A stretch of DNA of 52,725 bases from assembly GCA_028281005.1 (NCBI GenBank), contig JANQKS010000114.1:1-52725 (forward strand), written 5' to 3'. Numbering within the stretch: the first letter of the stretch is position 1; every line of letters starts with the position of its first letter. A program made the translations under genes and the position numbers. The notes under the pieces were generated by a model. That model was not told the DNA's origin and made no database searches. It saw only the letters and a list, made by a program, of their open reading frames with translations. Shown piece after piece: positions 11,275 to 41,770 of the stretch. The stretch comes from Pseudomonadales bacterium. Lineage in GTDB: Bacteria > Pseudomonadota > Gammaproteobacteria > Pseudomonadales > Azotimanducaceae.

Positions 11275-11299
11275 GCGGGTTTACCTCGTCATGAATCTG

Positions 11300-13277: not shown

Positions 13278-13337
13278 TGCGGGTATTAAATCTTGGTCCT
13301 CTGGCGGCCTATATTATCCAAGCGATTAATATTCCAC

Positions 13338-13424: not shown

Positions 13425-13460
13425 TAAGGAGCCGCGGTTCTATTAACGGAGAGGATCAAA

Positions 13461-15800: not shown

Positions 15801-15838
15801 CGCTCTACTAGCCCCTTATGTATCGATAGGTTGATACT

Positions 15839-17581: not shown

Positions 17582-17620
17582 CACCAAGCTAAAACGCCGT
17601 GAGATTGGGCTAGGGCGCCG

Positions 17621-18046: not shown

Positions 18047-18057
18047 CGTTGACAGGT

Positions 18058-18579: not shown

Positions 18580-18585
18580 ATCACA

Positions 18586-19038
18586 TCATGTGTTTGCGTT
18601 GGATCCATTTTGCACCGCACTGGAAAACTTGTTCAGCAATCGATACAGCGAATCTAGATTGGACGCGCCGAACTGCGCCTCGATGTGCCGGTATAAGGCT
18701 TCCGAGTCGGGCGCGACGCGCGCTACTTTACTCGATCCGGCGGCAGTAAGCGAGAAGGTTGCACGGCGTTGATCAACCGGATCCTGCAGGCGAGCTACGT
18801 AACCGGTTTGTTCCAGATGTTTCAGGATGCGCGTTAAGCTGGGTGCCAACAAGATGGACCTGTGCGCCAGCGTGGTGGCATCGATATCAGGATAAGCGGA
18901 CAGCACCCGCAATACGCGCCATTGCTGCTCTGTCAGACCGTGTTTACGCAACATGGGTCTGAAACTGGCCATGGCCGCCTCGCGCGCTTTGAGCAGTTGC
19001 AACGGTAGGTTGTGCTCAATGTCCCGCAGCGCGCTCAC
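18586..19038 (-). CDS. hpaR: MarR-family regulator, HpaR-like
   Basis: This 150-residue MarR protein tracks E. coli HpaR closely: LPLQLLKAREAAMASFRPMLRKHGLTEQQWRVLRVLS at the N-terminus, then LAHRSILLAPSLTRILKHLEQTGYVARLQDPVDQRRATFSLT in the winged helix. HpaR represses the homoprotocatechuate meta-cleavage operon and is released by the aromatic acid. The GTG start overlaps the FAH gene stop by four bases (GTGA), so it is translated with it. The neighbouring FAH, HpaF and HpaE genes agree with this identity. A perfect palindrome TTAACATGTTAA (19948-19959) in the divergent control region is the natural operator candidate. Confidence 0.85.
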   Translation of the reverse strand: MSALRDIEHNLPLQLLKAREAAMASFRPMLRKHGLTEQQWRVLRVLSAYPDIDATTLAHRSILLAPSLTRILKHLEQTGYVARLQDPVDQRRATFSLTAAGSSKVARVAPDSEALYRHIEAQFGASNLDSLYRLLNKFSSAVQNGSNANT

Positions 19039-19895: not shown

Positions 19896-19947
19896 ATCAC
19901 TGTCCTAATCAAACATGTGGTTGACCGTCACCCATACTCAGGCATAC

Positions 19948-19959
19948 TTAACATGTTAA
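19948..19959. promoter_or_regulatory. Palindromic operator candidate between FAH gene and hpaF
   Basis: TTAACATGTTAA is a perfect 12-base palindrome centred between the divergent FAH and hpaF starts (19895 and 19977). MarR proteins bind such short AT-rich palindromes. With hpaR in the same unit, autoregulation plus control of the hpaF/hpaE side is a reasonable reading; no binding data are available. Confidence 0.45.
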
Positions 19960-19976
19960 ATGATTTCGGGGGTGGC

Positions 19977-20363
19977 ATGCCACATCAAATCATCGAGTAC
20001 TCCAGCAACCTAAATAGCGTGCTAGACATCGCAACGCTGGTTGACGCGCTGCACAGCGCCGCTGCAGCGCAAGAAGAACTACCGCTGGCGGGATTGCGTA
20101 CGCGCGCCTACGTCAGCGAACGTTTTCTGATCGCCGACCGCCATCCGGATAATGCCTTTGTCGCGGTGTATCTGCGGGTCGGTGAGGGGCGTGACCGTGC
20201 CACCCTGCAGCGCATTGGCAGCACACTGTCTGAGGTATTGGTAAAGCAGGTGCAGACCATGGCGCCTGATCTTCCCATTGCGTTGTCTTATGAACTGCAA
20301 GAAATAGATGCGGGTTTACGTTGGAACACCAACTCCATCCGCGATCATATGCAGGCCAGGTAA
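19977..20363 (+). CDS. hpaF: 5-carboxymethyl-2-hydroxymuconate isomerase
   Basis: This is a 128-residue tautomerase-superfamily enzyme. I chose ATG 19977 because it puts Pro directly after Met (MPHQIIEYSSNL), and Pro1 is the catalytic base in this family. A GGGGGTGG ribosome site precedes it, while earlier in-frame starts add 20 unrelated residues. Other blocks are AVYLRVGEGRDRATLQ and IALSYELQEIDAGLRWNTNSIRDH, typical of CHMI. It isomerises 5-carboxymethyl-2-hydroxymuconate in the homoprotocatechuate meta pathway, acting after the HpaE dehydrogenase encoded 57 bases downstream. Confidence 0.88.
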   Translation: MPHQIIEYSSNLNSVLDIATLVDALHSAAAAQEELPLAGLRTRAYVSERFLIADRHPDNAFVAVYLRVGEGRDRATLQRIGSTLSEVLVKQVQTMAPDLPIALSYELQEIDAGLRWNTNSIRDHMQAR

Positions 20364-20420
20364 TCAGATGAAGCAGATTCACCTGTTTAACCCAATCAGC
20401 TTAATCCAGAGGAGAATCCT

Positions 20421-21956
20421 ATGAGCGATGAGCTTGCGCAAAACCTGGTAGAAGTGGAACAACAACTGGCGCGTTTTCGCAACGCTACCCTGACACATTT
20501 TGTCAATGGCGCAGCGTATGCGGGTGAGTCCGGTGAGAGTTTTACCAACGCAAGCCCCATCGACAATTCCGTGACCGGTTTAGTGGCCGCGGGCAGCGCT
20601 GCAGACATCGATGTGGCCTGCCGCGCAGCAGCGGACGCGTTTCCAGCCTGGAGAGCCATGGCGGGTGAGGCGCGCCGTGATCTTTTACACCGTATCGCAG
20701 ATGCCGTCGAAGCCAACGCCCGCGAGATTGCCTTGGTCGAAAGTTATGACACCGGTCAGGCGCTGCGCTTCATGAGCAAAGCTGCGGTGCGCGGTGCGGA
20801 GAATTTCCGTTTTTTCGCCGACCGTGCGCCAGGTGCTCAGGACGGTCTGTCATTACCGGCTGCTGAACACCTGAACTTCAGCCTGCGCCAACCCATCGGC
20901 CCGGTGGGGGTCATTACCCCGTGGAATACGCCGTTCATGTTGTCGACCTGGAAAATTGCGCCAGCGCTGGCGGCGGGATGTACCGTCGTGCACAAACCGG
21001 CGGAGTGGTCTCCTTACTCAGCAGCCCTGCTGGTGGAAATTATGCATGATGCGGGGTTGCCGGCGGGGGTGATGAACACCGTGCAAGGTTTAGGCGAAGA
21101 AGCGGGTAAGGCGCTCACCGAACACCCGGACATTAAGGCAGTCGCCTTTGTGGGGGAATCGGTAACGGGTAGCCACATCATGCGCCAGGGTGCGGCGACC
21201 TTAAAACGTGTACATTTTGAGCTTGGCGGTAAAAACCCGGTGGTGGTGTTTGAAGATGCCGATCTAGAACGCGCCTTGGATGCCGTGGTGTTTATGATCT
21301 ACAGCCTGAATGGTGAGCGCTGTACTTCGTCCAGCCGGTTGTTGATTCAAGGCAGCGTCAAGGAGGAGTTTTTGCAGAAACTCGCGGCTCGCGTAGACCA
21401 ACTGAAAGTTGGGCATCCGCTTGATCCGGCCACGGAAGTAGGCCCGCTGATCCACCCGCGTCACTTAGATAAGGTGTGCAGCTATTTCGACTTGGCCCGC
21501 GAAGAAGGTGCTGCGGTGGCCGTAGGGGGTGGCCGAGCAAGTGTGGCCGCTGGCGCCGTAGAAGGCGGCAACTTCGTCACACCGACCCTGTTCACCGATG
21601 CCTCGAACCATATGCGCATTGCCCAAGAAGAGATTTTTGGCCCGGTGTTGACCGCCATCTCTTTTCAGGATGAAGCTGAGGCCGTGGCTCTGGCCAACGG
21701 GGTAGACTATGGTTTGGCCGGCTATGTGTGGACTGGCGATTCCGGGCGCGCCATTCGGATGGCGCAGGCTTTGGATGTGGGCATGGTGTGGGTCAATTCT
21801 GAAAACAACCGTCACCTGCCAACACCCTTTGGGGGTATGAAGGCCAGTGGCATCGGCCGCGATGGCGGTGACTACAGCTTTGACTTTTATATGGAAACTA
21901 AAAACGTCTGTATTGCCGCCGGTACTCATGGCATACCTCAGCTGGGTAACGGCTAA
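20421..21956 (+). CDS. hpaE: 5-carboxymethyl-2-hydroxymuconate semialdehyde dehydrogenase (HpaE-like)
   Basis: This 511-residue NAD-dependent aldehyde dehydrogenase has the oxyanion Asn169 (TPWNTP), general base Glu267 (HFELGGKNP) and nucleophile Cys301 (NGERCTSSSR). The overall pattern matches HpaE, which oxidises the ring-cleavage semialdehyde of homoprotocatechuate. ATG 20421 follows a good AGGAGAA site. It is preceded by hpaF and followed 60 bases later by the ligA/ligB dioxygenase genes, so all four likely form one plus-strand operon. Other semialdehyde dehydrogenases share this sequence class; the context narrows it to the meta-cleavage role. Confidence 0.87.
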   Translation: MSDELAQNLVEVEQQLARFRNATLTHFVNGAAYAGESGESFTNASPIDNSVTGLVAAGSAADIDVACRAAADAFPAWRAMAGEARRDLLHRIADAVEANAREIALVESYDTGQALRFMSKAAVRGAENFRFFADRAPGAQDGLSLPAAEHLNFSLRQPIGPVGVITPWNTPFMLSTWKIAPALAAGCTVVHKPAEWSPYSAALLVEIMHDAGLPAGVMNTVQGLGEEAGKALTEHPDIKAVAFVGESVTGSHIMRQGAATLKRVHFELGGKNPVVVFEDADLERALDAVVFMIYSLNGERCTSSSRLLIQGSVKEEFLQKLAARVDQLKVGHPLDPATEVGPLIHPRHLDKVCSYFDLAREEGAAVAVGGGRASVAAGAVEGGNFVTPTLFTDASNHMRIAQEEIFGPVLTAISFQDEAEAVALANGVDYGLAGYVWTGDSGRAIRMAQALDVGMVWVNSENNRHLPTPFGGMKASGIGRDGGDYSFDFYMETKNVCIAAGTHGIPQLGNG

Positions 21957-21974
21957 ACGCGCCGCCTAGGCGCG

Positions 21975-22004
21975 CAATGGAGAGCAATGGAGATCAATGG
22001 AGAG
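21975..22004 (+). repeat. Triple 10-base tandem repeat carrying ribosome sites
   Basis: CAATGGAGAG, CAATGGAGAT and CAATGGAGAG follow each other without gaps just before the ligA start at 22017. Each unit contains a GGAG Shine-Dalgarno core and an ATG out of frame with ligA. A CGCCTAGGCG palindrome (21963-21972) sits just upstream. Slippage here could change translation of the dioxygenase pair. Confidence 0.6.
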
Positions 22005-22016
22005 TAGGCACACACC

Positions 22017-22352
22017 ATGAGCTTGTATCAGGTGCAAAAATTCCTCTATCACTTAAACCGAGACGACCGTGTCAAGGCGCAGTTTCTCGACAGCCGGGAA
22101 GTGGCGTTAGCTGCCTACGAATTAGATAACGAAGAACACCAAGCGCTCTTGGACGGTGATATCGGCCTGCTGTATGTATTGGGCGTTAATGGTCAGATCC
22201 TGATGCACTTTGCCGCGTTGTTAGGCATAGAGTGGTTTGATTACCTGGACATGATGCGAGAGGGCATCAAGCAACACGGCCCGGTGCGTGCGGGGGTCTA
22301 TACCATGACCGGTGGCGGGGCGAGTTTTACCGTGGAGGGTCAGCAGCGATGA
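22017..22352 (+). CDS. Extradiol dioxygenase small subunit (LigA family)
   Basis: This 111-residue all-helical protein belongs to the LigA family, the alpha subunit of protocatechuate 4,5-dioxygenase-type enzymes. It shows QKFLYHLNRDDRVKAQFLDSREVALAAYELDNEEHQALLDGDIGLLYVLGVN, and ends with GPVRAGVYTMTGGGASFTV. Its ATGA overlap with the following ligB gene means the two are translated together as a heteromer. LigA lids the active site of LigB. The HpaE/HpaF neighbours point to homoprotocatechuate or a similar catechol as substrate. Confidence 0.85.
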   Translation: MSLYQVQKFLYHLNRDDRVKAQFLDSREVALAAYELDNEEHQALLDGDIGLLYVLGVNGQILMHFAALLGIEWFDYLDMMREGIKQHGPVRAGVYTMTGGGASFTVEGQQR

Positions 22353-23173
22353 GCCTGGTTTATGCCGGTGTGCTGTGCCATGGGCCGGGTATCACCGGCC
22401 GTGCGCACCTGGTGGACAATACTGCCGCGCGAGACGCTTTGTATGCAGCCTTGGATCGACAGCGTGCTGAGATTCAAGCCAGCGGCGCTGAAGTGCTGAT
22501 TGTGGTGGCGGCGGAACACTTCGCCAACTTTTTTATGGACAATATGCCAGCCTTTTGTATTGGCTTAGGTGAGAAGCATGAAGGCCCTATTGAAGACCCG
22601 GAGTGGCTCGCCATCCCCCGCACCGTCATTCGCGGCCATCCTGAATTGGCGTTGCGTTTGACCAAAGAGGTGATGCAAACTGTTGATGTCGCTTACGCGG
22701 AAGAGTGGAAGTGTGACCACGGCATCATGGTACCGCTGCACTTCCTCACGCCGAAATACGACTTGCCGGTCATCCCGGTTAACATTAATTGTCAGGGACC
22801 ACCCCTGGCGCCGCTGCACCGGGTGTGGGCGTTTGGCGAAGCTCTGCGGCGGGCGTGCGACAGCGTGCCCGAAAAAATTGCCTTGGTCGGTACCGGCGGT
22901 ATATCCCATTGGCCGGCCACGCCGGATTCCGGCAAGATAAATGAAGCCTGGGACCGGCAATTCCTCGACCGATTGATGCGCCAGGACAAAGCAGCGTTGC
23001 TTTCCTATACCGATGAAGAAACCTACCGGGATGGCGGTCAGGGCGGGTTTGAGATTCGCACCTATATAGCAGCGGCGGCTGCGGCTGGGGGCCCGGGAGA
23101 GCTGCAGTTTTATACCGCAGAGCTGCCGATTTTTGCGGTGGGTTGCACCGTGGCGCGCTTGCAGGTCGCCTGA
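22349..23173 (+). CDS. Class III extradiol ring-cleavage dioxygenase (LigB family)
   Basis: This is a 274-residue catalytic subunit of a non-haem iron(II) extradiol dioxygenase. Likely iron ligands are His11 (LCHGPG), His57 (AAEHFANF) and Glu235 (GGFEIRTY). Asp123-His124 (KCDHGIMVPLHFL) and His187 (GTGGISHWP) are the expected acid-base residues. It opens a catechol ring next to the two hydroxyls to give a muconate semialdehyde, which the HpaE-like enzyme could oxidise. Overlap with ligA by four bases shows coupling. E. coli HpaD has the same fold but no LigA partner, so this cluster uses a two-subunit version. The substrate is inferred from neighbours only. Confidence 0.87.
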   Translation: MSLVYAGVLCHGPGITGRAHLVDNTAARDALYAALDRQRAEIQASGAEVLIVVAAEHFANFFMDNMPAFCIGLGEKHEGPIEDPEWLAIPRTVIRGHPELALRLTKEVMQTVDVAYAEEWKCDHGIMVPLHFLTPKYDLPVIPVNINCQGPPLAPLHRVWAFGEALRRACDSVPEKIALVGTGGISHWPATPDSGKINEAWDRQFLDRLMRQDKAALLSYTDEETYRDGGQGGFEIRTYIAAAAAAGGPGELQFYTAELPIFAVGCTVARLQVA

Positions 23174-28768: not shown

Positions 28769-30907
28769 ATGTCAGAAGACGCATATCAGGATTGGCAAGC
28801 CCGGGCAGAGAAAGAACTGAGGGGCATGCCGCTGGACGACCTGACCTGGATGAGCCCGGAAGGTATTCCCATCAAACCCTTGTATACCGAAGCTGATTTG
28901 GAAGACATTGCCCATGTCTCCACCTTTCCCGGCGCCGCGCCGTTTATGCGCGGGCCGCGTTCCACCATGTACACCAACCGGCCCTGGACCATCCGTCAAT
29001 ATGCCGGTTTTTCCACCGCGGAAGAATCCAACGCGTTTTATCGGCAAAACCTGGCGGCTGGACAAAAAGGGTTGTCCGTGGCTTTCGATTTGGCCACCCA
29101 CCGCGGCTTTGACTCCGATCATCCGCGGGTGGCGGGTGATGTCGGCATGGCCGGTGTTGCCATCGACTCGGTAGAAGACATGAAGATTCTATTCGACGGC
29201 ATCCCACTGGATGAAATGTCGGTGTCGATGACCATGAACGGCGCGGTCCTGCCGGTGCTAGCCGGCTACGTGGTGGCGGCGGAAGAGCAAGGCGTGGCGC
29301 AGAAGGACCTGGCCGGCACCATTCAGAATGACATCCTCAAAGAATTTATGGTGCGCAATACGTTCATCTATCCGCCGGAGTCCAGCATGCGCATCGTGGC
29401 GGACATCATCGGCTACACCGCGGAGCACATGCCGCGCTTCAATTCTATCTCCATTTCCGGCTATCACATGCAGGAAGCCGGCGCCAACGCGGTGCAGGAA
29501 GTGGCTTTTACCTTAGCAGACGGTATCGAGTACGTGCGGGCTGCGCTGGCCAAGGGTCAAGAGATCGACAAGTTTGCCCCGCGGCTGTCGTTTTTCTTCT
29601 GCATTGGCATGAACTTTTTTATGGAAATTGCCAAGCTGCGAGCGGCGCGTATTCTGTGGCACGAGTTGATGAGCCAATTTAATCCGCAAAACCCCACGTC
29701 ACTCATGCTGCGCACCCATTGCCAAACCTCAGGGGTATCCCTGCAGGAGCAGGATCCGTACAACAACGTGGTAAGGACCACCATCGAAGCCATGGCGGCG
29801 GTGCTTGGCGGCACGCAGAGTTTACACACCAACGCGTTGGATGAAGCGATTGCCCTGCCGACCCCATTTTCGGCGCGCATCGCCCGCAACACGCAAATCA
29901 TCCTGGCGGAAGAAAGCCAAATTACCCGCACGGTGGACCCGCTCGGCGGCAGCTACTACATCGAAAGCTTAACCAACTCGATCGTTGCGCATGCGCGCAA
30001 ACTGATTAACGAAGTCGAACAGATGGGAGGCATGACCAAGGCGGTTATCTCGGGCATGCCTAAACAGCGTATCGAAGAGGCCGCGGCCCAGCGCCAGGCG
30101 CGCATCGAGCGTGGTGAGGACGTCATCGTGGGTGTGAACAAGTACGAATTGGAGCAAGAAGACAGTGAGCTCGATGTGTTGGCGGTGGACAACGCCAAAG
30201 TTCGGGATGCGCAGATTCGGCGCCTTCAAGAAGTACGCACCAGCCGGGATGAAGCCAAAGCCCAAGCGAGCATGGAGGCGTTGACCAAGGCGGCCAGCGA
30301 AGGCTCGGGCAACCTGCTCGATTTATCGATTGCAGCCACCCGCAACCGGGTCACCGTTGGCGAATTATCGTTTGCCTTGGAAAAAGTTTTCAATCGACAC
30401 GAACCCAAGGCGAAGATGACACCCGGCGTCTACCGAGAGAGTTACGGTGACGATCCCGCGTTCAACCGGGTGCAAGACGAGGTTAAAGTATTTACCGATG
30501 TGGAAGGGGAAGCCCCCAGCATCTTGGTGGTAAAAATGGGCCAAGACGGTCACGACCGCGGCGCCAAAGTCATCTCCAACGCCTTTGGCGATTTTGGTTT
30601 TGAAGTCAGCATGGGGCCTCTGTTCCAAACCCCGACGGAAGCGGCCAAACAAGCCAAGGAGGAAGGAGTCCATGTGGTTGGGGTGTCCAGCCTGGCTGGC
30701 GGTCACAAGTCTTTAGTGCCGGAGATGATTGAACAACTCAAAGCAGAAGGCCTCGATGACGTGGTGATTGTTGCCGGTGGTGTCATTCCTCAGCAGGACT
30801 ACCAGGCGCTCTACGACGCAGGTGTGCACGCCATCTTTGGTCCCGGCAGCAATATTCCCGATGCGGCCAGCCAAGTTTTGCAGTTGATTCCCGGTAAAAA
30901 CAGATAA
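28769..30907 (+). CDS. Methylmalonyl-CoA mutase, single-chain
   Basis: This is a 712-residue adenosylcobalamin enzyme. The catalytic barrel begins [28 protein letters not shown] and contains [18 protein letters not shown] and [17 protein letters not shown]. The C-terminal B12 domain has [10 protein letters not shown] with the cobalt-binding His near residue 595, then [12 protein letters not shown] and VIVAGGVIP. One chain carries both parts, as in the homodimeric and scpA-type enzymes. It rearranges (R)-methylmalonyl-CoA to succinyl-CoA, the last step of propionyl-CoA catabolism. The epimerase follows 66 bases downstream and the carboxylase genes converge beyond. No MeaB/ArgK chaperone gene is in the window. 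Confidence 0.96.
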
Positions 30908-30973: not shown

Positions 30974-31387
30974 ATGATAGGTCGTTTGAACCATGTGGCC
31001 ATTGTTGTGCCCGATTTAGCCGCCGCGGCTGATAAATACCGCAGTTCTCTGGGTGCCACGGTGACAGATCCGGTAGACCTGCCGGATCATGGCGTCACGA
31101 CGGTCTTTGTGGAGCTGCCCAATACCAAAATAGAACTGCTGCATCCGTTCGGTGAAGACTCGCCGGTGCAGAACTTCCTGGATAACAATCCCAGCGGCGG
31201 CATGCATCACGTGTGTTACGAGGTGGAAGACATCCACGCCGCCATCAGCCATTTGGTGGAAGAAGGTGCGCGCGTGTTAGGCGATGGCCAGCCTAAAACC
31301 GGTGCCCATGGTTTGCCGGTGGTGTTCCTGCATCCCAAAGATTTCTGTGGCACCTTGGTAGAGCTTGAAGAGGTGAAAGCAGCCTAG
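30974..31387 (+). CDS. mce: Methylmalonyl-CoA epimerase
   Basis: This 137-residue VOC-fold epimerase has the expected metal ligands visible as His7 (LNHVAI), His78/79 (GGMHHVCYEV) and Glu130 (GTLVELEE). It also has KIELLHPFGEDSPVQNFLDNNP and GLPVVFLHPKDFCGTLVEL, typical of methylmalonyl-CoA epimerase. It converts (S)- to (R)-methylmalonyl-CoA, feeding the mutase encoded directly upstream. TAAGGAG before ATG 30974 is a good ribosome site. The stop is immediately followed by the T/A-rich arm of the terminator shared with pccA. Confidence 0.94.
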   Translation: MIGRLNHVAIVVPDLAAAADKYRSSLGATVTDPVDLPDHGVTTVFVELPNTKIELLHPFGEDSPVQNFLDNNPSGGMHHVCYEVEDIHAAISHLVEEGARVLGDGQPKTGAHGLPVVFLHPKDFCGTLVELEEVKAA

Positions 31388-31455: not shown

Positions 31456-33441
31456 TTACTCAAATTCGACGATGGCCTGATCCACCATCAGTGAGTCGCC
31501 TTGTTCGGCCATGACCTTGGCCACCACGCCATCGTTTTCTGCGCGCAAACTGTTTTCCATTTTCATCGCTTCAATCACGGCCAGCTCCTCACCGGCTTTC
31601 ACTTCGTCCCCTGCGGCCACATTGAGGCGCACCAGCAGGCCTGGCATGGGAGACAAGAGGAATTTGGAAAGGTCAGGCGCTTCTTTTTCCAGCATGTGTT
31701 TGGACAGTTCCGCAGCCCGCGGGGTCATCACTACCAGTTCGGTTTCGGCACCGCGGTGGAACGCCTTGTAGCCGGCCTTGTGGGTGTCCAGCTGGAGGTT
31801 GACCACGCGACCGTTGATTTCGGCAGTGATGAGTACTTCGCCGGGTTGCCAGTCAGTGCGGATGCGGTACACGTGTTCGGCGTAGGTGACTTCGTAACCG
31901 TGTTCGACGGCCTGTACGTTAACCGGGTAGTGTTCGCCGTTGGCCACCACCACCCAATCTGCCTGGGGTTGGCGTTCGAAACGGCGCGTTTGGCCGCTGA
32001 TCTCAGCCGCTCTTTCTTCCGAACGTACATGGACTACCGCCGTTAAGGCGACTGGTTCCACTGGGTCTGATTGCGGCACATCCGCGGCGTGGAAACCATC
32101 GGGATATTCTTCGGCAATGAAGTTGGTGGTAAGGCGCCCCTCTTTAAATCGCGGGTGCATGATCAGCGCGTTTAAGAAGCTGATGTTGTGATTAACCCCG
32201 CGGATATAGTAAGCATCCAGGGCATCCGCCATGTGTTCGATGGCTTGTTCGCGATTTTCCCCATAGGTGATCAGTTTGGCGATCATGGGGTCGTAGAACA
32301 TGGACACTTCGCTGCCTTCTTCGATGCCTGTATCCACGCGTACCGTCGCAGTTTCCTGGGGGGCTACGTAGCGCACCAGGCGGCCAATGGAGGGCAGGAA
32401 GTTACGGAACGGATCTTCTGCATAGACCCGCGTTTCCATCGCCCAACCGCTCAGTTTGACATCGTCCTGGCTCAGGCTTAGCGGTTCGTCGTTGGCCACA
32501 CGAATCATGTGCTCAACCAAGTCTTGGCCGGTGACAAGTTCTGTTACCGGATGTTCAACCTGCAGACGCGTGTTCATCTCCAAAAAGTAGAAGTTTTTGT
32601 GGGCATCAACGATAAATTCCACCGTACCCGCGGAGCAGTAATCTACCGCACGTGCCAGGGCAATGGCTTGCTCGCCCATGGCGCGCCGTGTGTCTTCGTC
32701 CAGGAATGGCGAGGGTGCTTCTTCAATGACTTTTTGGTGCCGGCGTTGAATGGAACATTCACGCTCACCTAAGTAAACCGCGTTGCCGTGTTTGTCAGCC
32801 AGCACCTGTATCTCTATGTGGCGCGGCTCCTCGATAAATCTCTCAGCAAAGACGCGGTCGTCACCGAAGCTGGAGCGTGCTTCATTGGCGGCGCGTTCGA
32901 AGCCATCACGGCACTCATCGTCGTTCCATACCACGCGCATGCCTTTGCCACCGCCGCCGGCACTGGCTTTGAGCATCACCGGATAGCCGATGTCTTGGGC
33001 GATCTCAACGGCGTGGTCTGGGCCGTCGATGACATCCGTATAGCCGGGGATGGTGTTTACGCCGGCGTCCTGGGCCAACAACTTGGAAGTAATTTTGTCA
33101 CCCATGCTGGTGATGGCTTTTTCGCCGGGGCCGATGAACGCAATACCGGCGTCGGCCAACGCCTGGCAGAAATCCGCGTTTTCAGACAAGAAGCCGTAGC
33201 CGGGATGTACGGCTTCGGCACCGGTGTCTTTGCAGGCCTGCACGATGCGGTCGATGCGTAGGTAGCTCTCCGCCGAAGCAGCCGCACCTATGTGTACGGC
33301 TTCATCCGCCATGCGTACATGCAAGGCGTTGGCGTCTGCGTCGGAGTAGACGGCCACGGTGGCTATGCCCATGCGTCGCGCGGTTTTAATCACGCGGCAG
33401 GCAATTTCACCGCGATTCGCAATCAAAATCTTATCGAACAT
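31456..33441 (-). CDS. pccA: Propionyl/acetyl-CoA carboxylase alpha subunit
   Basis: This is a 661-residue biotin-dependent carboxylase subunit. The biotin carboxylase part starts FDKILIANRGEIACRVIKTARRMGI. It contains KASAGGGGKGMRVV (ATP loop), EPRHIEIQVLADKHGNAVYLGERECSIQRRHQKVIEEAPS and EMNTRLQVEHPVTELVTGQDLVEHM. A linker domain follows, and the C-terminal biotinyl domain ends with EAMKMEN, with biotinylated Lys627. It forms carboxybiotin for transfer by the beta subunit encoded 46 bases upstream in the same unit. With the neighbouring mutase and epimerase, propionyl-CoA is the likely substrate. Confidence 0.93.
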   Translation of the reverse strand: MFDKILIANRGEIACRVIKTARRMGIATVAVYSDADANALHVRMADEAVHIGAAASAESYLRIDRIVQACKDTGAEAVHPGYGFLSENADFCQALADAGIAFIGPGEKAITSMGDKITSKLLAQDAGVNTIPGYTDVIDGPDHAVEIAQDIGYPVMLKASAGGGGKGMRVVWNDDECRDGFERAANEARSSFGDDRVFAERFIEEPRHIEIQVLADKHGNAVYLGERECSIQRRHQKVIEEAPSPFLDEDTRRAMGEQAIALARAVDYCSAGTVEFIVDAHKNFYFLEMNTRLQVEHPVTELVTGQDLVEHMIRVANDEPLSLSQDDVKLSGWAMETRVYAEDPFRNFLPSIGRLVRYVAPQETATVRVDTGIEEGSEVSMFYDPMIAKLITYGENREQAIEHMADALDAYYIRGVNHNISFLNALIMHPRFKEGRLTTNFIAEEYPDGFHAADVPQSDPVEPVALTAVVHVRSEERAAEISGQTRRFERQPQADWVVVANGEHYPVNVQAVEHGYEVTYAEHVYRIRTDWQPGEVLITAEINGRVVNLQLDTHKAGYKAFHRGAETELVVMTPRAAELSKHMLEKEAPDLSKFLLSPMPGLLVRLNVAAGDEVKAGEELAVIEAMKMENSLRAENDGVVAKVMAEQGDSLMVDQAIVEFE

Positions 33442-33487: not shown

Positions 33488-35020
33488 TTAGAGCGGAATG
33501 TTGCCGTGTTTGCGCCAGGGGTTTTCCAGCTTCTTGTCGCGCAACATGGCGAAAGAGCGGCACACGTGTTTGCGTGTTTCTTCCGGCATGATGACGTCGT
33601 CAATGTAGCCGCGGCTGGCTGCCACAAAGGGGTTGGCGAACAGTTCTTGGTACTCATCGGTGCGGCGCTGAATACCTTCGTTGTCACCGAGTTCTTTACG
33701 GAAAATGATCTCAACCGCTCCTTTTGCACCCATCACCGCAATCTCGGCACTGGGCCAAGCCAGGTTAACGTCACCGCGCAGGTGTTTGGATGCCATTACA
33801 TCGTATGCCCCGCCGTAGGCTTTGCGGGTGATCAGGGTGACCTTGGGCACGGTGCATTCAGCGTAGGCGTACAGCAGTTTGGCACCGTTTTTAATGATGC
33901 CGCCATATTCCTGGGCTGTGCCGGGCTGGAAACCGGGCACATCAACGAGGGTGAGTATCGGGATATTAAAGGCATCGCAAAAACGCACAAACCTTGCGCC
34001 TTTCTTGGACGAATCGATGTCGAGACAGCCGGCCAGCACCATGGGTTGATTTGCCACTACACCAACCGTAGTGCCCTGCAGGCGAATGAATCCCACTACA
34101 ATGTTCTGCGCGTATTTCGGCTGTACTTCAAAAAAGTCGCCTTCGTCCGCTACTTTTTCGATCACCTCTTTAATGTCGTATGGCTTGGCCGGATCCGCGG
34201 GTACCAAGGTGTTAAGCGAGGGTTCTAGACGTGTAGAAGAATCGTTGGTGGGCCAGCGCGGCGGCTTTTCGCGGTTATTGGCAGGCAAAAAATCGAAGAA
34301 GCGGCGGGTGCGCAGGATCGCTTCAACGTCGTTTTCGAAGGACAAATCCGCAACGCCGGATCTACGCGTGTGAACGCTGGCCCCGCCCAACTCTTCAGGG
34401 GTCACTATTTCGTGGGTGACAGTTTTCACCACGTCGGGACCAGTGACAAACATATAGGCGGAATCTTCCACCATAAAAATAAAATCTGTCATGGCGGGAG
34501 AGTAGACGGCACCCCCAGCGCATGGCCCCATGATGACCGATAGCTGCGGTATGACGCCGGAGGCCATGACGTTGCGTTGGAATATTTCGGCATACCCGCC
34601 AAGGGAGGCTACCCCCTCCTGGATGCGGGCGCCGCCGGAGTCGTTTAAGCCAATGACCGGCGCACCCACTTTCATGGCTTGGTCCATGACTTTGCAAATT
34701 TTCTCTGCGTGGGCTTCGGATAAAGCACCGCCGAACACGGTGAAATCCTGGCTGAACACAAATACCAGGCGACCGTTGATGGTGCCGTAGCCGGTGACCA
34801 CGCCATCCCCGGGGATTTTCTGCTCCTGCATGCCGAAATCGGTGGAGCGGTGCTCTACAAATTTATCCCATTCTTCGAAGCTGCCTTCGTCGAGCAGAAT
34901 GTCGAGGCGCTCACGGGCAGTGAGTTTGCCTTTTAAGTGTTGTTGTTGGATGCGGTGTTCACCACCACCTAATAGGGCTGCTTGTTGTTTTTCTTGCAGC
35001 TTGGTGATGTTGTCTTGCAT
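33488..35020 (-). CDS. pccB: Propionyl-CoA carboxylase beta subunit
   Basis: This 510-residue carboxyltransferase has crotonase-type N and C halves: [77 protein letters not shown], then [29 protein letters not shown] and [19 protein letters not shown] chose ATG 35020 ([11 protein letters not shown]), with GGAG five bases upstream, rather than an in-frame start at 35044. Length is exactly that of typical PccB. It transfers CO2 from biotin to propionyl-CoA. It is divergent from the CoA-transferase/sulfatase unit. Confidence 0.94.
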
Positions 35021-35099
35021 AAATACTCCACTATAGAGGGCCACGCGGGGCGCGAATAATACCGTTTACGCAAGTTGGCGGCTAGCTTGCATGGGTTCG

Positions 35100-35152
35100 G
35101 ATCGTAGCCAAGCCTGCAGCCTTCACCTATGCTGCTGGGCTTGGGAACGATC
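35100..35152 (+). promoter_or_regulatory. 53-nt structured leader of the CoA-transferase/sulfatase unit
   Basis: GATCGT (35100-35105) pairs with ACGATC (35147-35152), CCAAGCC (35108-35114) with GGCTTGG (35138-35144), and CAGC (35117-35120) with GCTG (35131-35134). Small symmetric bulges separate the helices, and the apical loop has ten bases. The stem ends exactly where the AGGGGA ribosome site (35153-35158) begins. No known riboswitch class is recognised. It could be a protein- or ligand-controlled leader, or a site acting as DNA. Confidence 0.55.
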
Positions 35153-35168
35153 AGGGGATAACACGACG

Positions 35169-36386
35169 ATGAGCCAAGCTTCATCTGCATCAGTAGGCGA
35201 CACGCAAACTCAATCCACCGACGGCGCCTTGGCGGATGTGCGGGTTTTAGATTTAACGGATGAGCGCGGTATCTACGGCGCCAAATTGTTGGCGGATCTG
35301 GGTGCTGATGTGGTGCGGCCTGAGCCGCTTGAAGGAGATCCCTTACGCCAGCGTGGACCGCACCACGAGGTAGCCGGATCCGCAGCTACTTCGCTGTGGT
35401 TTGCCTTTTTTGCGTCTAATCGGCGCTTCTTTGCGTTGGATCCCGATGCCACCCAAGGTCTGGCGCAACTGCGGCAATTGGCGCAGCGCGCGCACATTAT
35501 CCTTACCTGCGACGCTGCGTTTGGCGTAGCGCAGCTTGATCTTGAGCAACTGCAAGATCAGCGTCCCGAACTGGTGGTGATCAACACCTCCTCTTTTGGC
35601 CCATCCGGTCCATGGCGCAACTATCTGGCGCCGGATTTAGTGGCGGGAGCCTTGGGGGGTGCGGTGGCAACCACCGGTGATACGGATACCCCACCGTTGA
35701 AAGGTTTTGGCGAGCTGAATTTTATGGTCTGCGGCGCTTACGCGGCCATTGCGGCGTTGGCGGCGTTGTTTAGCGCGCGTCAGACCGGCGCAGGCCAGCG
35801 CGCGGACGTTTCGGTCCACGAATCCATCGCCTCCTGTCTGGAGCAGGTGTTGATGTTCTATTGGTACGCGGATCGCTTAATGCGCCCGAGCAGGGTATTG
35901 CCGCGCCAGGGTGCCACCCATTGGTCCAATGCTTATACCGTGATGCCCGGCAAAAACGGCAGCATCATGGTGACCCCGACGCCGGATTTTGATAACCAGC
36001 TGGCGTGGCTGATCGAAGAGGATGCCCACGGCGACCTGATAGAGCCCAAATACATGGATCCGGAAAACTTGCCGCTACGTGTACAACGGACTATGGAACT
36101 ATTACGCGAATGGGTGGCGGAAAAGGATGTGCAAACTCTGTTTCACGAAGCGCAATCCCGCCATTGCCCTTACGGTTGGGTGTTACCCATCGAACATGTT
36201 GCCGATAATCCTCAGCTTGATGCGCGGCAGTGGTATCAGCCGTATCAGATCGGCGCGGCGGAAATCACCAGTCCGGGGGCACCGTATAACTTCACTCATA
36301 CCCCTTGGCGACTGAAGCCGCACGGGGAATCGGGGGCGGATACCGAGCAGGTGCTGGCGGATATTGGCTGGGGGGCACAGTCGTGA
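35169..36386 (+). CDS. Class III CoA-transferase subunit, catalytic Asp absent
   Basis: This 405-residue CaiB/BaiF-fold protein (VRVLDLTDERGIYGAKLLADLGADVVRPEPLEGDPLRQRGP at about 24-63, INTSSFGPSGPW, APDLVAGALGG) starts at ATG 35169 after AGGGGA. In the position where these enzymes carry the catalytic Asp (D..AG motif), this one reads FGELNFMVCGAY (about 180-191), with no Asp. The next gene, overlapping by GTGA, keeps the Asp. An active/inactive pair is known from benzylsuccinate CoA-transferase BbsEF, so I read this as the structural subunit of a heteromer. The acid substrate is unknown. A hairpin leader precedes it and a sulfatase ends the unit. Confidence 0.8.
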   Translation: MSQASSASVGDTQTQSTDGALADVRVLDLTDERGIYGAKLLADLGADVVRPEPLEGDPLRQRGPHHEVAGSAATSLWFAFFASNRRFFALDPDATQGLAQLRQLAQRAHIILTCDAAFGVAQLDLEQLQDQRPELVVINTSSFGPSGPWRNYLAPDLVAGALGGAVATTGDTDTPPLKGFGELNFMVCGAYAAIAALAALFSARQTGAGQRADVSVHESIASCLEQVLMFYWYADRLMRPSRVLPRQGATHWSNAYTVMPGKNGSIMVTPTPDFDNQLAWLIEEDAHGDLIEPKYMDPENLPLRVQRTMELLREWVAEKDVQTLFHEAQSRHCPYGWVLPIEHVADNPQLDARQWYQPYQIGAAEITSPGAPYNFTHTPWRLKPHGESGADTEQVLADIGWGAQS

Positions 36387-37642
36387 CAGAAGCGCCGCGG
36401 CCTTTGGATGGATTAAAAGTACTCGATTTCACCCACGTGCTGGCCGGTCCCTTTGCCACACGTGTTTTAGGTGACATGGGCGCGGACGTGGTCAAAATCA
36501 ATTCGGTCAGCCGCGCTGCGGCGGCCAATGATCCGGCGCACCCGTACTACCTCATGTGGAACAGGAACAAACGGGCGTTAGCGCTGGACATGTCAAATCC
36601 GCAAAGCCGGCCTGTGTGTCGAGCGCTGTGTGAGCAGGCGGACGTGGTCATCGACAACTTCTCAGTGGGGGTGCTGGATCGCTGGGGTGTGGGGTACGAC
36701 ATCATCAGTCAAACCAACCCGGGGGTGATCTATGTACAAATGTCCGGCATGGGTGAAGGTGGGCCTTGGTCTAAGTATGTGACCTACGCACCGACCATCC
36801 ATGCGTTGGCGGGACTAACCCACCTGACCGGCGTACCCGGTCGTGAAGACATCGGCATCGGCTTTTCCTATAACGATCACCAGGCAGGTTTGCACGGCGC
36901 GGTAGCGATCCTTGCGGCTCTGGCAGCCCGGCACCGCAGCGGGCGTGGGCAACGGGTGGATGTGTCGCAATTTGAAGTGGGGGTGAATTTTGCCGGCCCG
37001 GCGTTGCTGGATCTATTTGCCAACGGCAACTTGGCGCGCCCTTGTGGCAATGACCTGCCCTACGATCAGGCGGCACCACACAACGTGTATCCATGTATTC
37101 CTAAATCGCCGGCCGGCTATAAAGGTAATGAGGGTAATGACGGCGTTGAAAATATCGAACAGCAGCGTTGGATAGCCATTGCCTGTATGACCGATGAGCA
37201 CTGGCAGGCGTTGAAAACAGTGATGGGTTCGCCGCCATGGGCCGATGCGAACCAGTTAGACACCGCGGCGGGTCGGCTCGACAACCAGGCGGAGTTGGAT
37301 GTCCGGATAGGCGCATGGACGCAAGAGTTTGAAGCCTATGAGTTAATGGCGTTGTGCCAACAAGCCGGTGTACCGGCAGGGGTTGTGCAGGATGGTGTTG
37401 ATCTGGTGGAAAACGATCCGCAGTTGGCCGCCGCTGGCTTTTTCGAGAAGCTGGAGGATGTCCACGAAAGCTTAGGTCAGACGTGGGTTGACCACTTACC
37501 CATCAAGTTTTCGCGCACACCCTGCGAACAATATCAGCGAGTGCGGGCGTTGGGTGAAGACAATGAGGCGGTGTTGGCGGATTGGCTGGCGATGGACGAT
37601 ACCACCATTGCCGCGGCGCAAGACCAGGGGGTATTGCAATGA
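36383..37642 (+). CDS. Class III CoA-transferase subunit, catalytic Asp165
   Basis: This is a 419-residue CaiB/BaiF enzyme. I place its start at GTG 36383, which overlaps the previous stop; an in-frame start at 36305 would lie deep inside the upstream gene. Features are LDGLKVLDFTHVLAGPFATRVLGDMGADVVKIN, KRALALDMSNPQSR, QMSGMGEGGPWSKY and YNDHQAGLHGAVAILAAL, where Asp165 is the expected catalytic carboxylate. RSGRGQRVDVSQFE follows. It likely forms an alpha-beta transferase with the preceding protein, moving CoA onto a carboxylic acid. It overlaps the sulfatase gene by ATGA, so all three are co-translated. Confidence 0.85.
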   Translation: MTEAPRPLDGLKVLDFTHVLAGPFATRVLGDMGADVVKINSVSRAAAANDPAHPYYLMWNRNKRALALDMSNPQSRPVCRALCEQADVVIDNFSVGVLDRWGVGYDIISQTNPGVIYVQMSGMGEGGPWSKYVTYAPTIHALAGLTHLTGVPGREDIGIGFSYNDHQAGLHGAVAILAALAARHRSGRGQRVDVSQFEVGVNFAGPALLDLFANGNLARPCGNDLPYDQAAPHNVYPCIPKSPAGYKGNEGNDGVENIEQQRWIAIACMTDEHWQALKTVMGSPPWADANQLDTAAGRLDNQAELDVRIGAWTQEFEAYELMALCQQAGVPAGVVQDGVDLVENDPQLAAAGFFEKLEDVHESLGQTWVDHLPIKFSRTPCEQYQRVRALGEDNEAVLADWLAMDDTTIAAAQDQGVLQ

Positions 37643-39231
37643 GCGAGGCAAACACCGAGCAGAACAAGACGCCTAACGTTTTGTTTATCATCACCGATCA
37701 ACAACGCGCCGATCACCTCGGGTGTATGGGAAACGAGGTGGTGCGCACACCACACATAGACGCTCTGGCGGCACGCAGCACGGTGTTTACCAACGCCTGG
37801 GTGTGTAACCCAGTGTGTATGCCGAACCGTTGCTCCATCATGACCGGACGCATGCCCACTGCTCATGGGGTTGTGTTTAATGACCGCACTTTGGATTTAG
37901 GCGCCAATACGTTTGTGCGGCGCTTTCGTGCGGCGGGCTACCAAACTGCTTTAATCGGTAAGGCTCACTTCCAACACGGCATGAGTAAAAACGCGGTGGT
38001 GCCGTTCCGCGGCGAAAGTGCGGTTGCCTCACCCTATCCGCAGGGTTGGGATCAAATTGAAGACTACGAGCGTTACGTGGAGGCGCTACCCCCCGCGCCG
38101 GAAGATTTTTATGGCTTTCAAAAGGCAGAGTTGGCCATAGACCACGGCGCCAGGGTGTCCGGCCACCATCTACAGTGGGCGCTGAACAAAGGGGGTCGTT
38201 TAGAAGATTTGTTGGTGGATTACGCAGCAGATGCCCCGGGCGCGCACCGGTCGGATAACTGGTGGCAAATTTATCAGCCACCCTACGCTGAGACGTTACA
38301 TTCCACAGCGTTTGTGGCGGAGCGCACCCAGGATTTTATCCAGCACGCCAGCGCTAACCAGGCGCCATGGCTGGCGTTCTGCTCTTTTCCAGACCCCCAC
38401 CATCCGCTCACCCCCCCGGGCGATTGGTTTTTCCGTCATCGGCCTGAAGATATGCCGTTACCGGCAACACGTAACGACAGTTTAGAAGATGCGCCGGAGC
38501 ATCTGCGGCTGGCGGCAAAGTTACATCCCCGCGATCAGCGTGACTGGGTGACTCCTTGCGGTTTCGGTGATGACGCCTTATTGGGGCAGGCGCTCGCTGC
38601 CACCTACGGCATGGTGGAAATGATCGACGATCGTATTGGCCAGATTCTGCAAACCCTCGTCGAGTGTGGCGCAGCAGACAACACAATTGTGGTGTTCACC
38701 AGCGATCACGGCGACATGATGGGTGATCACGGGTTGTTTTTGAAAGGATTCATGCACTACCGCGGAACTTTGCAGGTTCCCATGATGATTCACGCCCCCG
38801 GCCGGTTTGCGTGCCGCACCAACGCGCTGGCTTCCAGCATTGACCTGGGTCCCACCTTAATGGAGCTGTGTGGGGTCAACGCTTATGACGGCGTCCAAGG
38901 GTATTCTCTCGCGCCGATGTTAGGGGATGCTGACGCAGCAGTACGGGACTATGTACTGATTGAAGACGACCTCGCGGATGTCACCGCCAAACTCACTCCA
39001 ATACCCGCCAAGACACGCACCTTGATTACTCCCACCTACCGCTACACGCGCAATTCAACAGGTGAACAGCAGCTGTTTGATCTGCTCAACGACCCGGACG
39101 AGATGCGTGATCTCAAGGCGGTGGATACGGCCAAACGTGCGGAGATGGTGGAGTTGCTGACCGACGCCTTAATCGCCGCGGACGATGCCGCACGGGGGGC
39201 GCCGGCTACGGCTACGTTAACCGGCTTGTGA
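37639..39231 (+). CDS. Cytoplasmic C-type sulfatase
   Basis: This is a 530-residue alkaline-phosphatase-superfamily hydrolase. NVLFIITDQQRADHLG (Asp20, Gln21 near the metal) is followed by the sulfatase signature CMPNRCSIMTGR, C-x-P-x-R, with Cys60 the residue normally turned to formylglycine. IGKAHFQHG, FPDPHHPLTPPGDWF and VVFTSDHGDMMGDHGLFLKGFMHY supply further metal and substrate residues. No signal peptide is present, unlike most arylsulfatases, so it acts in the cytoplasm on an imported sulfate ester, or possibly a phosphonate or phosphate ester. The ATGA overlap with the CoA-transferase ties desulfation to CoA activation. The formylglycine-generating enzyme is not in the window. Confidence 0.85.
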   Translation: MSEANTEQNKTPNVLFIITDQQRADHLGCMGNEVVRTPHIDALAARSTVFTNAWVCNPVCMPNRCSIMTGRMPTAHGVVFNDRTLDLGANTFVRRFRAAGYQTALIGKAHFQHGMSKNAVVPFRGESAVASPYPQGWDQIEDYERYVEALPPAPEDFYGFQKAELAIDHGARVSGHHLQWALNKGGRLEDLLVDYAADAPGAHRSDNWWQIYQPPYAETLHSTAFVAERTQDFIQHASANQAPWLAFCSFPDPHHPLTPPGDWFFRHRPEDMPLPATRNDSLEDAPEHLRLAAKLHPRDQRDWVTPCGFGDDALLGQALAATYGMVEMIDDRIGQILQTLVECGAADNTIVVFTSDHGDMMGDHGLFLKGFMHYRGTLQVPMMIHAPGRFACRTNALASSIDLGPTLMELCGVNAYDGVQGYSLAPMLGDADAAVRDYVLIEDDLADVTAKLTPIPAKTRTLITPTYRYTRNSTGEQQLFDLLNDPDEMRDLKAVDTAKRAEMVELLTDALIAADDAARGAPATATLTGL

Positions 39232-39418: not shown

Positions 39419-40534
39419 ATGAACTTTGAATTTGGCGAAGACCAGAACCTCGTGCGCGACCAAGCGCGCGGATTTCTGACCGACAATTGCCCGCCCGCGG
39501 TGGTGCGCCGTGTCCTTGAAGGCGACGAACTTTACGCCGCTGACTTATGGCAGCAGATAGTGGAAATGGGATGGACCGCAACGGTGATACCTGAAGAGTA
39601 TGGCGGTCTGGGAATGTCATATCTTGAGTTGGTGGTGATCGCCGAAGAGCTTGGTCGCGCCTGTGCACCGGTTCCGTTCTCTTCATCCGTATATCTGGCC
39701 ACCGAGGCCATCCTGGCTGCTGGAACGCAAGCACAGAAAGAAAAATGGCTGCCGAAGCTGGCGGCAGGGGAAGTGATTGGCACTTTGGCCTATGTCGAAG
39801 GTGCGGGTGAAACCTCGGCGGCTAGCCTGGGTTGCAGTGTCAGCGACGGCAAACTGAGTGGCAGCAAAGCGGTGGTTGCTGATGCGCAAATTGCCCAGGT
39901 CATGATTGTGGCGGCAAAAAGCGACAGCGGCGACGGCGCCTCTCTTTACATTGTGCCCACGGATGCGGGCGTGAGCTGCGAGGCGCTCAACACGCTTGAT
40001 CCATCGCGTAATCACGCCAACGTGACCTTTGACGGCGCCAGCGCCGAGTTGCTTGGCAATGAAGGGGAAGGCTGGGCGCTGCTTGAAAGTACCCTGAATC
40101 GGGCCGCCATCTTGTTTGCCTGGGAACAATTGGGCGGCGCTGAGAGTTGCCTCGAAATGGCCAAAGAGTACGCCATGGGGCGCTATGCTTTTGGCCGGCC
40201 TATCGCGTCTTACCAAGCGATCAAACACAAGCTGGCCGATATGTATGTAAAAAACACCCTGGCGCGAGGTAATGTCTACTATGGGGCATGGGCGCTGAAC
40301 ACCGACGCCGACGAACTGCCGTTGGCCGCGGCAACCGCCCGCGTGGGTAGCATTCAGGCCTACTACTACGCGGCTAAAGAAAACATCCAAACCCATGGGG
40401 GTATGGGTTATACCTGGGAATTTGACTGCCAGTTCTACTATCGCCGCTCCAAAGTACTGGCATTGGAGATTGGCAGCGAAGCGGTATGGCAAGACAAACT
40501 CATCGACGCATCTGCCCACGCGGATGTGGCGTAA
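39419..40534 (+). CDS. Acyl-CoA dehydrogenase, smaller subunit
   Basis: This 371-residue flavoprotein shows NFEFGEDQNLVRDQARGFL, PEEYGGLGMSYLELVVIAEELGRACAPVPF and RYAFGRPIASYQAIKHKLADMYV, plus QTHGGMGYTWEFDCQFYYRRSKV. It removes two hydrogens from an acyl-CoA alpha/beta position, using FAD and electron-transfer flavoprotein. It is 18 bases ahead of a second, longer acyl-CoA dehydrogenase. Adjacent unequal pairs of this kind form mixed tetramers in steroid side-chain degradation (FadE pairs). The GGGGGAG site before ATG 39419 is strong. It starts a new transcript 187 bases after the sulfatase. Confidence 0.9.
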   Translation: MNFEFGEDQNLVRDQARGFLTDNCPPAVVRRVLEGDELYAADLWQQIVEMGWTATVIPEEYGGLGMSYLELVVIAEELGRACAPVPFSSSVYLATEAILAAGTQAQKEKWLPKLAAGEVIGTLAYVEGAGETSAASLGCSVSDGKLSGSKAVVADAQIAQVMIVAAKSDSGDGASLYIVPTDAGVSCEALNTLDPSRNHANVTFDGASAELLGNEGEGWALLESTLNRAAILFAWEQLGGAESCLEMAKEYAMGRYAFGRPIASYQAIKHKLADMYVKNTLARGNVYYGAWALNTDADELPLAAATARVGSIQAYYYAAKENIQTHGGMGYTWEFDCQFYYRRSKVLALEIGSEAVWQDKLIDASAHADVA

Positions 40535-40552: not shown

Positions 40553-41770
40553 ATGGATTTTGAAGATACCAAAGAAGAAGCAGCGTTCCGCGAAGAAGCG
40601 CGGACCTGGTTAGAAGCAAACGTCCCCTCTGAAGATGAAATGGCGGGTATGGACGGAATGGCGCGGGCCAAGTTCTGGCAGAAGCGCAAGTACGACGCGG
40701 GTTGGGCGTGTATTCGCTGGCCAAAGGAGTTTGGCGGCCGCGACGCCAATGCCATACAACAGGTCATTCTGAATCAGGAAGAAGCCAAAGTAGATGCCCC
40801 GGAAACCGGCGTATTCAGTATCGGCCAAGGGATGGCGGCACCCACGTTAATGACCTGGGCAGACGAAGAAGCCAAGCAACGTTTTATACCGCGTCTAGCC
40901 AGCGGTGAAGACATCTGGTGCCAGTTGTTCAGCGAACCCGCCGGCGGGTCAGACCTGGCGGCATTGCGCACCAAGGCGGAGAAAGACGGTGATGATTGGA
41001 TCATCAACGGCCAGAAGATTTGGACCTCTGGTGCACACTACTCCGATTGGGGCATTTTGGTGGTGCGCACCGACCCCAACGTGCCCAAACACAAAGGTCT
41101 GTCGTACTTTTATCTGAACATGAAAAGCCCTGGGGTAGAGATCAAACCCATTAAGCAGATCTCCGGTGACGCGAACTTTAACGAGGTGTATTTCACCGAC
41201 GTACGTATTCCCGACAGCCAGCGGCTTGGCGAAGTAGGGCAGGGTTGGCAAGTGTCCTTGACCACCCTCATGAACGAGCGTGCCAGCATCGGTGCCGGCG
41301 GCGGTGGTGTGAAATTCAACACGGTTAAACAAGCCGCGGAATCTGTGCAGATTGACGGCCGGCCAGCCATCGAGGACAAGCAGGTACGCGCCAAACTGGC
41401 GGACTGGTATGTGCAGGAAGCTGGCTTGAAGTACACCATCTACCGCACCTTGTCGGCGCTGTCCCGCGGTGAAATTCCAGGTCCGGAAAACTCCATCGGC
41501 AAACTGGTGGGTGCCAAGAAAACCCAGGACATGGCATCGTTTGCCATGGACTTGTTGGAACAACAAGGCATCGTACGTGATCGCAAGACCGATGAAGCCT
41601 TTGCAGCGCTGTTCCAGGATGCCTACATGTCGGTGCCCGGGTTACGCATCGCCGGCGGCACGGATGAGATCATGGCCAACATTATCGCGGAGCGGGTGTT
41701 GGGGCTGCCTCAGGAACCGCGTATGGATAAGGGGATTCCGTTTACGGAAGTGCCGACTGGGTCAAACTAG
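40553..41770 (+). CDS. Acyl-CoA dehydrogenase, larger subunit
   Basis: This 405-residue partner shows MDFEDTKEEAAFREEARTWLEANVP, WPKEFGGRDANAIQQVILNQEEA, CQLFSEPAGGSDLAALRTKA, WIINGQKIWTSGAHYSDWGILVVRT (FAD/acyl region), and the C-terminal RIAGGTDEIMANIIAERVLGLPQEP. AGGAGA precedes ATG 40553. Together with the preceding gene it probably makes a heterotetramer that dehydrogenates a bulky or branched acyl-CoA. The pairing is inferred from adjacency and unequal size. Two perfect palindromes follow the stop. Confidence 0.9.
   Translation: MDFEDTKEEAAFREEARTWLEANVPSEDEMAGMDGMARAKFWQKRKYDAGWACIRWPKEFGGRDANAIQQVILNQEEAKVDAPETGVFSIGQGMAAPTLMTWADEEAKQRFIPRLASGEDIWCQLFSEPAGGSDLAALRTKAEKDGDDWIINGQKIWTSGAHYSDWGILVVRTDPNVPKHKGLSYFYLNMKSPGVEIKPIKQISGDANFNEVYFTDVRIPDSQRLGEVGQGWQVSLTTLMNERASIGAGGGGVKFNTVKQAAESVQIDGRPAIEDKQVRAKLADWYVQEAGLKYTIYRTLSALSRGEIPGPENSIGKLVGAKKTQDMASFAMDLLEQQGIVRDRKTDEAFAALFQDAYMSVPGLRIAGGTDEIMANIIAERVLGLPQEPRMDKGIPFTEVPTGSN

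Follow-up and report, generated by a model that had tools for sequence, protein, structure and literature searches.

Choline sulfatase and the Pseudomonas arylsulfatase are cytoplasmic enzymes, the formylglycine (FGly) motif of sulfatases usually takes the form C-x-P-S-R, and formyl-CoA:oxalate CoA-transferase (Frc) is a homodimer with the catalytic Asp in both chains. In type III CoA-transferases a conserved Asp is catalytic (PMC9196870); BbsEF uses succinyl-CoA as its donor and is encoded in the bbs operon (PMC10818641); and the updated PS00523 sulfatase pattern (PMC5066984) permits only [STAGF] at the fourth motif position. Here we analyse a locus of a Pseudomonadales bacterium (Azotimanducaceae; assembly GCA_028281005.1) in which two CaiB/BaiF genes, called CaiB1 and CaiB2, and an FGly-type sulfatase gene occupy positions 35169-39231 of the forward strand. 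The window is the whole stretch analysed, 52,725 nucleotides of contig JANQKS010000114.1. A preliminary description had proposed that this trio forms a coupled organosulfate catabolic unit. By comparing related genomes, we find that the trio is not conserved, and consider it likely that it represents two independent functions that have become neighbours in this lineage, in a slot of variable content flanked by core propionyl-CoA genes on one side and a core pair of acyl-CoA dehydrogenases on the other.

Distribution of the trio and a proposed variable slot

The three genes, all on the + strand, encode proteins of 405 amino acids (CaiB1, 35169..36386), 419 amino acids (CaiB2, 36383..37642, with a GTG start) and 530 amino acids (sulfatase, 37639..39231). 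Reading of the junction letters shows that CaiB1 and CaiB2 are joined by a GTGA overlap, and CaiB2 and the sulfatase by an ATGA overlap. Matches to PF02515 (195.2 bits for CaiB1 and 316 bits for CaiB2; cut-off 23.3) and PF00884 (162.5 bits for the sulfatase; cut-off 25) confirm the preliminary identification of two CaiB/BaiF genes and a C-x-P-x-R sulfatase. For CaiB1, the ATG at 35169, with AGGGGA in front, was preferred over starts at 35091 or 35100. Given the overlaps, the three genes are likely to be transcribed together in this strain; the overlaps also suggest co-translation in this genome.

Forty genomes of the genus, including that of the window (G000), were searched, with a cut-off of E 1e-120 or better for sulfatase orthologues. 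The sulfatase was found in 13 genomes, CaiB2 in 25 and both in 8, compared with 8.1 expected (hypergeometric P(>=8) 0.67), and the adjacent trio was found in the window genome only (1/40). In G030, sulfatase and CaiB2 share a contig but are separated by 4.4 kb and five genes; in G018 they are separated by ~12.5 kb and the sulfatase is in two frames (decay or sequencing error possible); and in G001, G006, G009, G023 and G035 they are on different contigs. A survey of sulfatase loci comprised the best-scoring 80 of 454 relatives and overlapped the genus genomes in that several loci come from the same genomes. Among the 79 loci in which a sulfatase open reading frame (ORF) was called (all but L110), one (L043) has CaiB1-CaiB2 orthologues, 4.3 kb away, and none has them adjacent; any relative of the family III CoA-transferases of the window is present in six. 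Given that the trio stands together only here and that its halves co-occur at chance level, we read it as a lineage-specific combination rather than a conserved pathway; neither the conserved unit nor the three-gene synteny anticipated in related genomes was recovered.

The genes on either side of the trio behave differently. The sulfatase is followed after 187 bases by an acyl-CoA dehydrogenase pair, consisting of a short partner (ACADs, 39419..40534, +), for which IpdE2 is the best NCBIfam model, and a long partner (ACADl, 40553..41770, +), for which the best is PimC large, both under cut-off. The short dehydrogenase is present in 37/40 genus genomes (E 1e-80) and in all 21 genomes with >=90% completeness and <=5% contamination, and is adjoined by the long partner in all seven dehydrogenase loci fetched. 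In four of the 25 CaiB2 genomes (G000, G003, G018, G030) the short dehydrogenase and CaiB2 are on the same contig. To the left of CaiB1 lie two divergent genes on the - strand that we take, by inspection, to encode AccB, a carboxyltransferase-type subunit at the left edge of the slot (33488..35044; the GTG listed for it probably lies upstream of the real start), and AccA, a biotin carboxylase/carrier subunit (31456..33441). Farther away on the + strand are presumed genes for methylmalonyl-CoA mutase (MCM, 28769-30907) and methylmalonyl-CoA epimerase (MCE, 30974-31387), all four names being assigned from the ORFs without a family-library run. At other loci, the first recognised gene beside CaiB1 is AccB in L123 and L135, whereas in L130 AccB is one gene off; AccA lies in the same block in L123, L130, L135 and L165, and MCM/MCE in L123, L135 and L165.

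Between these flanks the gene content changes. In G003 the order is MCM-MCE-AccA-AccB-CaiB1-CaiB2, an alpha/beta hydrolase on the opposite strand, ACADs-ACADl and TetR, with no sulfatase at this locus; G025 has MCM-MCE-AccA-AccB, a molybdopterin oxidoreductase, an alpha/beta hydrolase and ACADs-ACADl, without a CaiB2 orthologue. The alpha/beta hydrolases of these two genomes are the same (69% identical). G030 has MscS-CaiB1-CaiB2-SnoaL-SDR, three opposite-strand genes and then sulfatase-ACADs-ACADl. In another group of genomes the CaiB pair lies amid genes of like sizes and order, annotated in L124 as PhyH, NUDIX, a GPH-type symporter and glycosyltransferases. With a near-universal dehydrogenase and varying interior genes, both the dehydrogenases and the genes for propionyl-CoA have the appearance of a core, and the contents between them change; the short dehydrogenase of the pair to which the preliminary description passed the CoA-loaded acid is genus-wide and not specific to the trio.

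Several points weigh against treating the trio as a chance assembly of independent functions. G030 keeps the order and strand CaiB1-CaiB2 ... sulfatase-ACADs-ACADl, even with five genes intervening, and sulfatase and short dehydrogenase share a contig in 4/13 sulfatase genomes (G000, G009, G018, G030), being adjacent in G000 and G030, three genes apart in G009 and ~26 kb apart in G018. The sulfatase-dehydrogenase link in part of the genus is real and speaks against a purely accidental neighbourhood, the linkage has to some extent a common history, and a genuine coupling of recent date could be what the four-base overlaps reflect. Many of the genomes are fragmented, so that location on different contigs is not proof of distance, and the survey was limited to the best-scoring 80 of 454 sulfatase relatives, with <3.5 kb of upstream DNA in 28 of the 79 loci (at least 3.5 kb in the other 51). 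A cut-off of E 1e-60 adds two sulfatase genomes (G003 and G008; 35-36% identity), of which the G003 homologue (36%) is on a contig separate from that of the CaiB genes.

The proposal of one organosulfate route, in which a sulfated carboxylic acid would lose its sulfate in the cytoplasm, receive CoA through CaiB1-CaiB2 and go on to the neighbouring dehydrogenases, draws on the GTGA and ATGA overlaps, the gene order kept in G030 at a distance of five genes, and the presence of FGE-family genes in the genome. It is also consistent with the finding that, in all three plasmid regions inspected (of 73 matching records), distant sulfatase cousins (35-38% identity) have annotated transporters of the carboxylate type in their vicinity; in one region an alpha-hydroxy acid oxidase and an FGE-family gene are close by as well. 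We nevertheless regard this route as unlikely, since the adjacent trio is confined to one genome in 40, co-occurrence is at chance, the dehydrogenase is present in 37/40 genomes irrespective of the other genes, and the neighbours of the sulfatase differ at other loci. Were the trio a true unit, it would offer a way of using sulfated acids inside the cell; these acids are a hard-to-trace pool of carbon and sulfur. Narrow literature searches for a sulfatase joined with a CoA-transferase or CaiB found nothing relevant, and absence from print is not claimed.

The CoA-transferase pair

CaiB1 and CaiB2 are 25% identical to each other, and their closest solved chains by sequence differ: 9fn0_B for CaiB2 (E 1.7e-70) and 9fn0_A for CaiB1 (E 7.9e-33, a weak match at 117 bits), each named as a subunit of benzylsuccinate CoA-transferase. 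Asp165 of CaiB2 aligns with Asp169 of formyl-CoA transferase. Across the genus rows, including those of the window and excluding rows with stops or not >50% identity, the catalytic column holds Asp in 23/23 CaiB2 sequences and Phe in 22/22 CaiB1 sequences (Phe185 in the window), the CaiB1 of L135 having been missed by the ORF caller though matched. In the printed 9fn0 alignments the same column holds Asp in 9fn0_B and Tyr in 9fn0_A. With both proteins in PF02515, adjacent unlike subunits nearest to different 9fn0 chains, and Asp in one of them only, the prediction that CaiB1-CaiB2 is a BbsEF-type heteromeric family III CoA-transferase, with CaiB2 as catalytic subunit and CaiB1 as the subunit without catalytic Asp, is well supported, in agreement with the heteromer first suggested for this locus.

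Fusion of the two genes in relatives provides indirect support for heteromer formation. A single frame of 809-831 amino acids holds the CaiB pair in 8 of the 25 genomes with CaiB2, and the seven of these frames that were fetched all read as CaiB1-linker-CaiB2 fusions; in G023 the CaiB1 match lies inside an 817-amino-acid frame with one internal stop, which may be a broken fusion. The view that class III CoA-transferases are unusual operon partners does not hold, as the subunits are fused in several relatives and BbsEF is itself encoded in an operon, bbs (PMC10818641). The window genome contains 30 CaiB2 matches at E 1e-20 or better, including that of the window, several of them in frames of 808-829 amino acids; fusion or tandem arrangement of family III CoA-transferases seems to recur in this genome. 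A plasmid search with CaiB1 gave no match at E 1e-40.

The sulfatase and its relatives

The FGly motif of the sulfatase is PVCMPNRCSIMTG, with C60-M-P-N-R64 at its core. Alignment of the window sequence with those of 76 of the 80 loci (sulfatase ORF of at least 400 amino acids, no stops) gave 77 rows, in 74 of which C60, P62, Asn63 and R64 (C-x-P-N-R) are present, the remaining three being gapped there. None of the 77 rows (three gapped) matches the updated PS00523 pattern of PMC5066984, Asn63 lying outside [STAGF]. In a second alignment (A1) of the window with 41 of 43 hand-picked loci, two having stops or shifts, the metal ligands and general-acid pair (D20, Q21, K108, H110, H254, D356, H357, K369) are invariant in 42/42 rows. 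CMPNR is also found in two plasmid cousins (Polaromonas and Martelella; ~38% identity) and in the 36% homologue of G003 (L147). The motif is CxPSR in five paralogue loci of the window genome and in a Sulfitobacter plasmid cousin (L173), and no such sulfatase motif was found in L148. The CxPNR sulfatases are a somewhat new, distinct subfamily, present in Pseudomonadales and Acidimicrobiia, outside the published FGly-sulfatase pattern, which would miss enzymes with this near-invariant Asn.

The N-terminus comprises a short hydrophilic stretch, MSEANTEQNKTPN, ahead of the first core strand, and the alternative longer TTG start at 37582 adds nothing signal-like; by inspection, no signal peptide is visible, in line with the earlier reading. 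The genome encodes FGE-family genes (six PF03781 matches above cut-off, best E 6.2e-53), candidates for the maturation enzyme, PF03781 also including enzymes other than FGE; like the invariant active-site set, they favour sulfatase chemistry.

The sulfatase scores under the cut-off of all ten NCBIfam models listed, including arylsulfatase PRK13759 (257.8 bits against 481), choline sulfatase (216.9 against 433.45) and PehA (172.6 against 900). Cleavage of phosphonate or phosphate esters in place of sulfate esters, as by a phosphonate monoester hydrolase, seems quite improbable: such an enzyme, 4upk, does occur among the solved-structure matches, and a related choline sulfatase has phosphoester promiscuity (PMC5870055), but 4upk ranks below the best matches, the sulfatase-family structures 4upi and 4upl, and the arylsulfatase and choline-sulfatase models outrank PehA.

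The 80 best sulfatase loci are mostly from Pseudomonadales/Gammaproteobacteria and Acidimicrobiia, and a tree, from which four of the 77 rows were left out by length, splits them largely by phylum. The window sulfatase falls in a six-row set whose five other members are Pseudomonadota (100/96 support). This grouping disfavours a recent plasmid origin, as does the low identity of the plasmid relatives (<60% in 73/73 records; best listed 38.1%), and such an origin is not supported.

Sulfatases elsewhere have mixed contexts. These would fit a sulfatase acting as a sulfur scavenger on the same promoter, with CaiB1-CaiB2 serving an acid from another catabolic part of the window (P450, LigB dioxygenase, acyl-CoA ligases), and the P450s, LigB dioxygenase, luciferase-like monooxygenases and AMP-binding enzymes of the window could supply such a part. 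An overlap within a catabolic operon is, on the other hand, an odd site for a scavenger, and we give this arrangement less credence than a single organosulfate route.

Certain relatives have neighbourhoods of their own. In a group of loci nearly all from Acidimicrobiia (L062, L066, L067, L070 and similar), a short-chain dehydrogenase occurs at -1 on the same strand in 11 loci and a luciferase-like monooxygenase at -2 in ten; a thiolase-like gene and a P450 are close by. On the Sulfitobacter plasmid (L173, 940-10254) the distant sulfatase cousin has as neighbours a tripartite tricarboxylate transporter, a second sulfatase, an FGE-family gene and an alpha-hydroxy acid oxidase. In L111 (9998-11565) the sulfatase is in two frames (389 and 152 amino acids), reflecting decay or sequencing error.

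Leader, proposed roles and known systems

The structured leader reported in front of CaiB1 was borne out locally: a hairpin or inverted repeat at 35098..35159 (+) has a folding energy of -31.5 kcal/mol, compared with a shuffle mean of -19.7 (z -3.85; equalled by 0/200 shuffles). The entire leader is unexceptional (z -1.57; 17/200 shuffles as stable). An Rfam scan of the window gave no family above threshold, a search for leader copies elsewhere in the genome gave just short weak matches of 15-25 bases (E 0.4 or worse), and the sister genome G003 has upstream of CaiB1 a short partial match to the right half of the leader only; on these grounds a riboregulator was rejected. The exact left arm of the hairpin is restricted to window-derived loci (2/175). 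The element is left as a hairpin or operator. Elsewhere in the window, a large catabolic region (9208-23173) encodes two P450s, a MerR regulator, an aldehyde dehydrogenase and a LigB-type dioxygenase, as well as a TonB-dependent receptor followed by a DUF3604 protein.

The gene layout, the heteromer signature, the active-site residues and the lack of conservation of the trio are shown by the analysis. Within the favoured reading of two independent functions, the Asp of CaiB2 would form the acyl-enzyme intermediate, with CaiB1 as a catalytically silent partner, and the pair would probably move CoA from succinyl-CoA to a carboxylic acid, which would next undergo beta-oxidation. Succinyl-CoA may be supplied by the methylmalonyl-CoA mutase/propionyl-CoA route encoded beside the pair. 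The sulfatase would be a formylglycine-dependent, probably cytoplasmic hydrolase, presumably freeing sulfate from a small imported organosulfate. The pair and the sulfatase may share a substrate in this strain; obligate coupling is unsupported. A bolder and doubtful extension is that the region from AccB to the dehydrogenases serves as an exchangeable "deconjugation slot", in which lineage-specific hydrolases (the CxPNR sulfatase, or the alpha/beta hydrolase of G003 and G025) would free masked acids for the heteromeric CoA-transferase and dehydrogenases to degrade. In Pseudomonadales and Acidimicrobiia, the CxPNR sulfatases would on this view be a widespread cytoplasmic family devoted to sulfated xenobiotic or lipid acids. 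The parts worth following are the CxPNR subfamily and the fused BbsEF-like enzymes, a smaller gain than a new unit would bring; the latter show that a BbsEF-like heteromer can be naturally fused, and here its setting is not that of toluene metabolism.

Frc shares fold family and catalytic Asp with CaiB2 (Asp169 corresponding to Asp165), but unlike the Frc homodimer, CaiB2 has a partner without the catalytic residue. The pair is closer to BbsEF and 9fn0 in consisting of two dissimilar family III subunits with Asp confined to one chain, and differs from BbsEF in the natural fusions of its relatives and in neighbours that include P450s and monooxygenases. An FGly-type active site is common to the sulfatase and to the choline sulfatase SmCS, the arylsulfatase SpAS1 (4upi) and phosphonate monoester hydrolases; unlike the SmCS/SpAS1 type, the sulfatase has C-M-P-N-R in place of the usual C-x-P-S-R. 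In the residue numbering of PMC5870055, the Asp14-Cys54-His104 spacing of SmCS (40, 50) equals that of D20-C60-H110 in the sulfatase, and the Asp296-Lys309 spacing (13) equals that of D356-K369. With SulfAtlas family S1 (PMC5066984) the sulfatase shares the PF00884 fold, CxPxR and the metal ligands, and differs at the position of the Asn.

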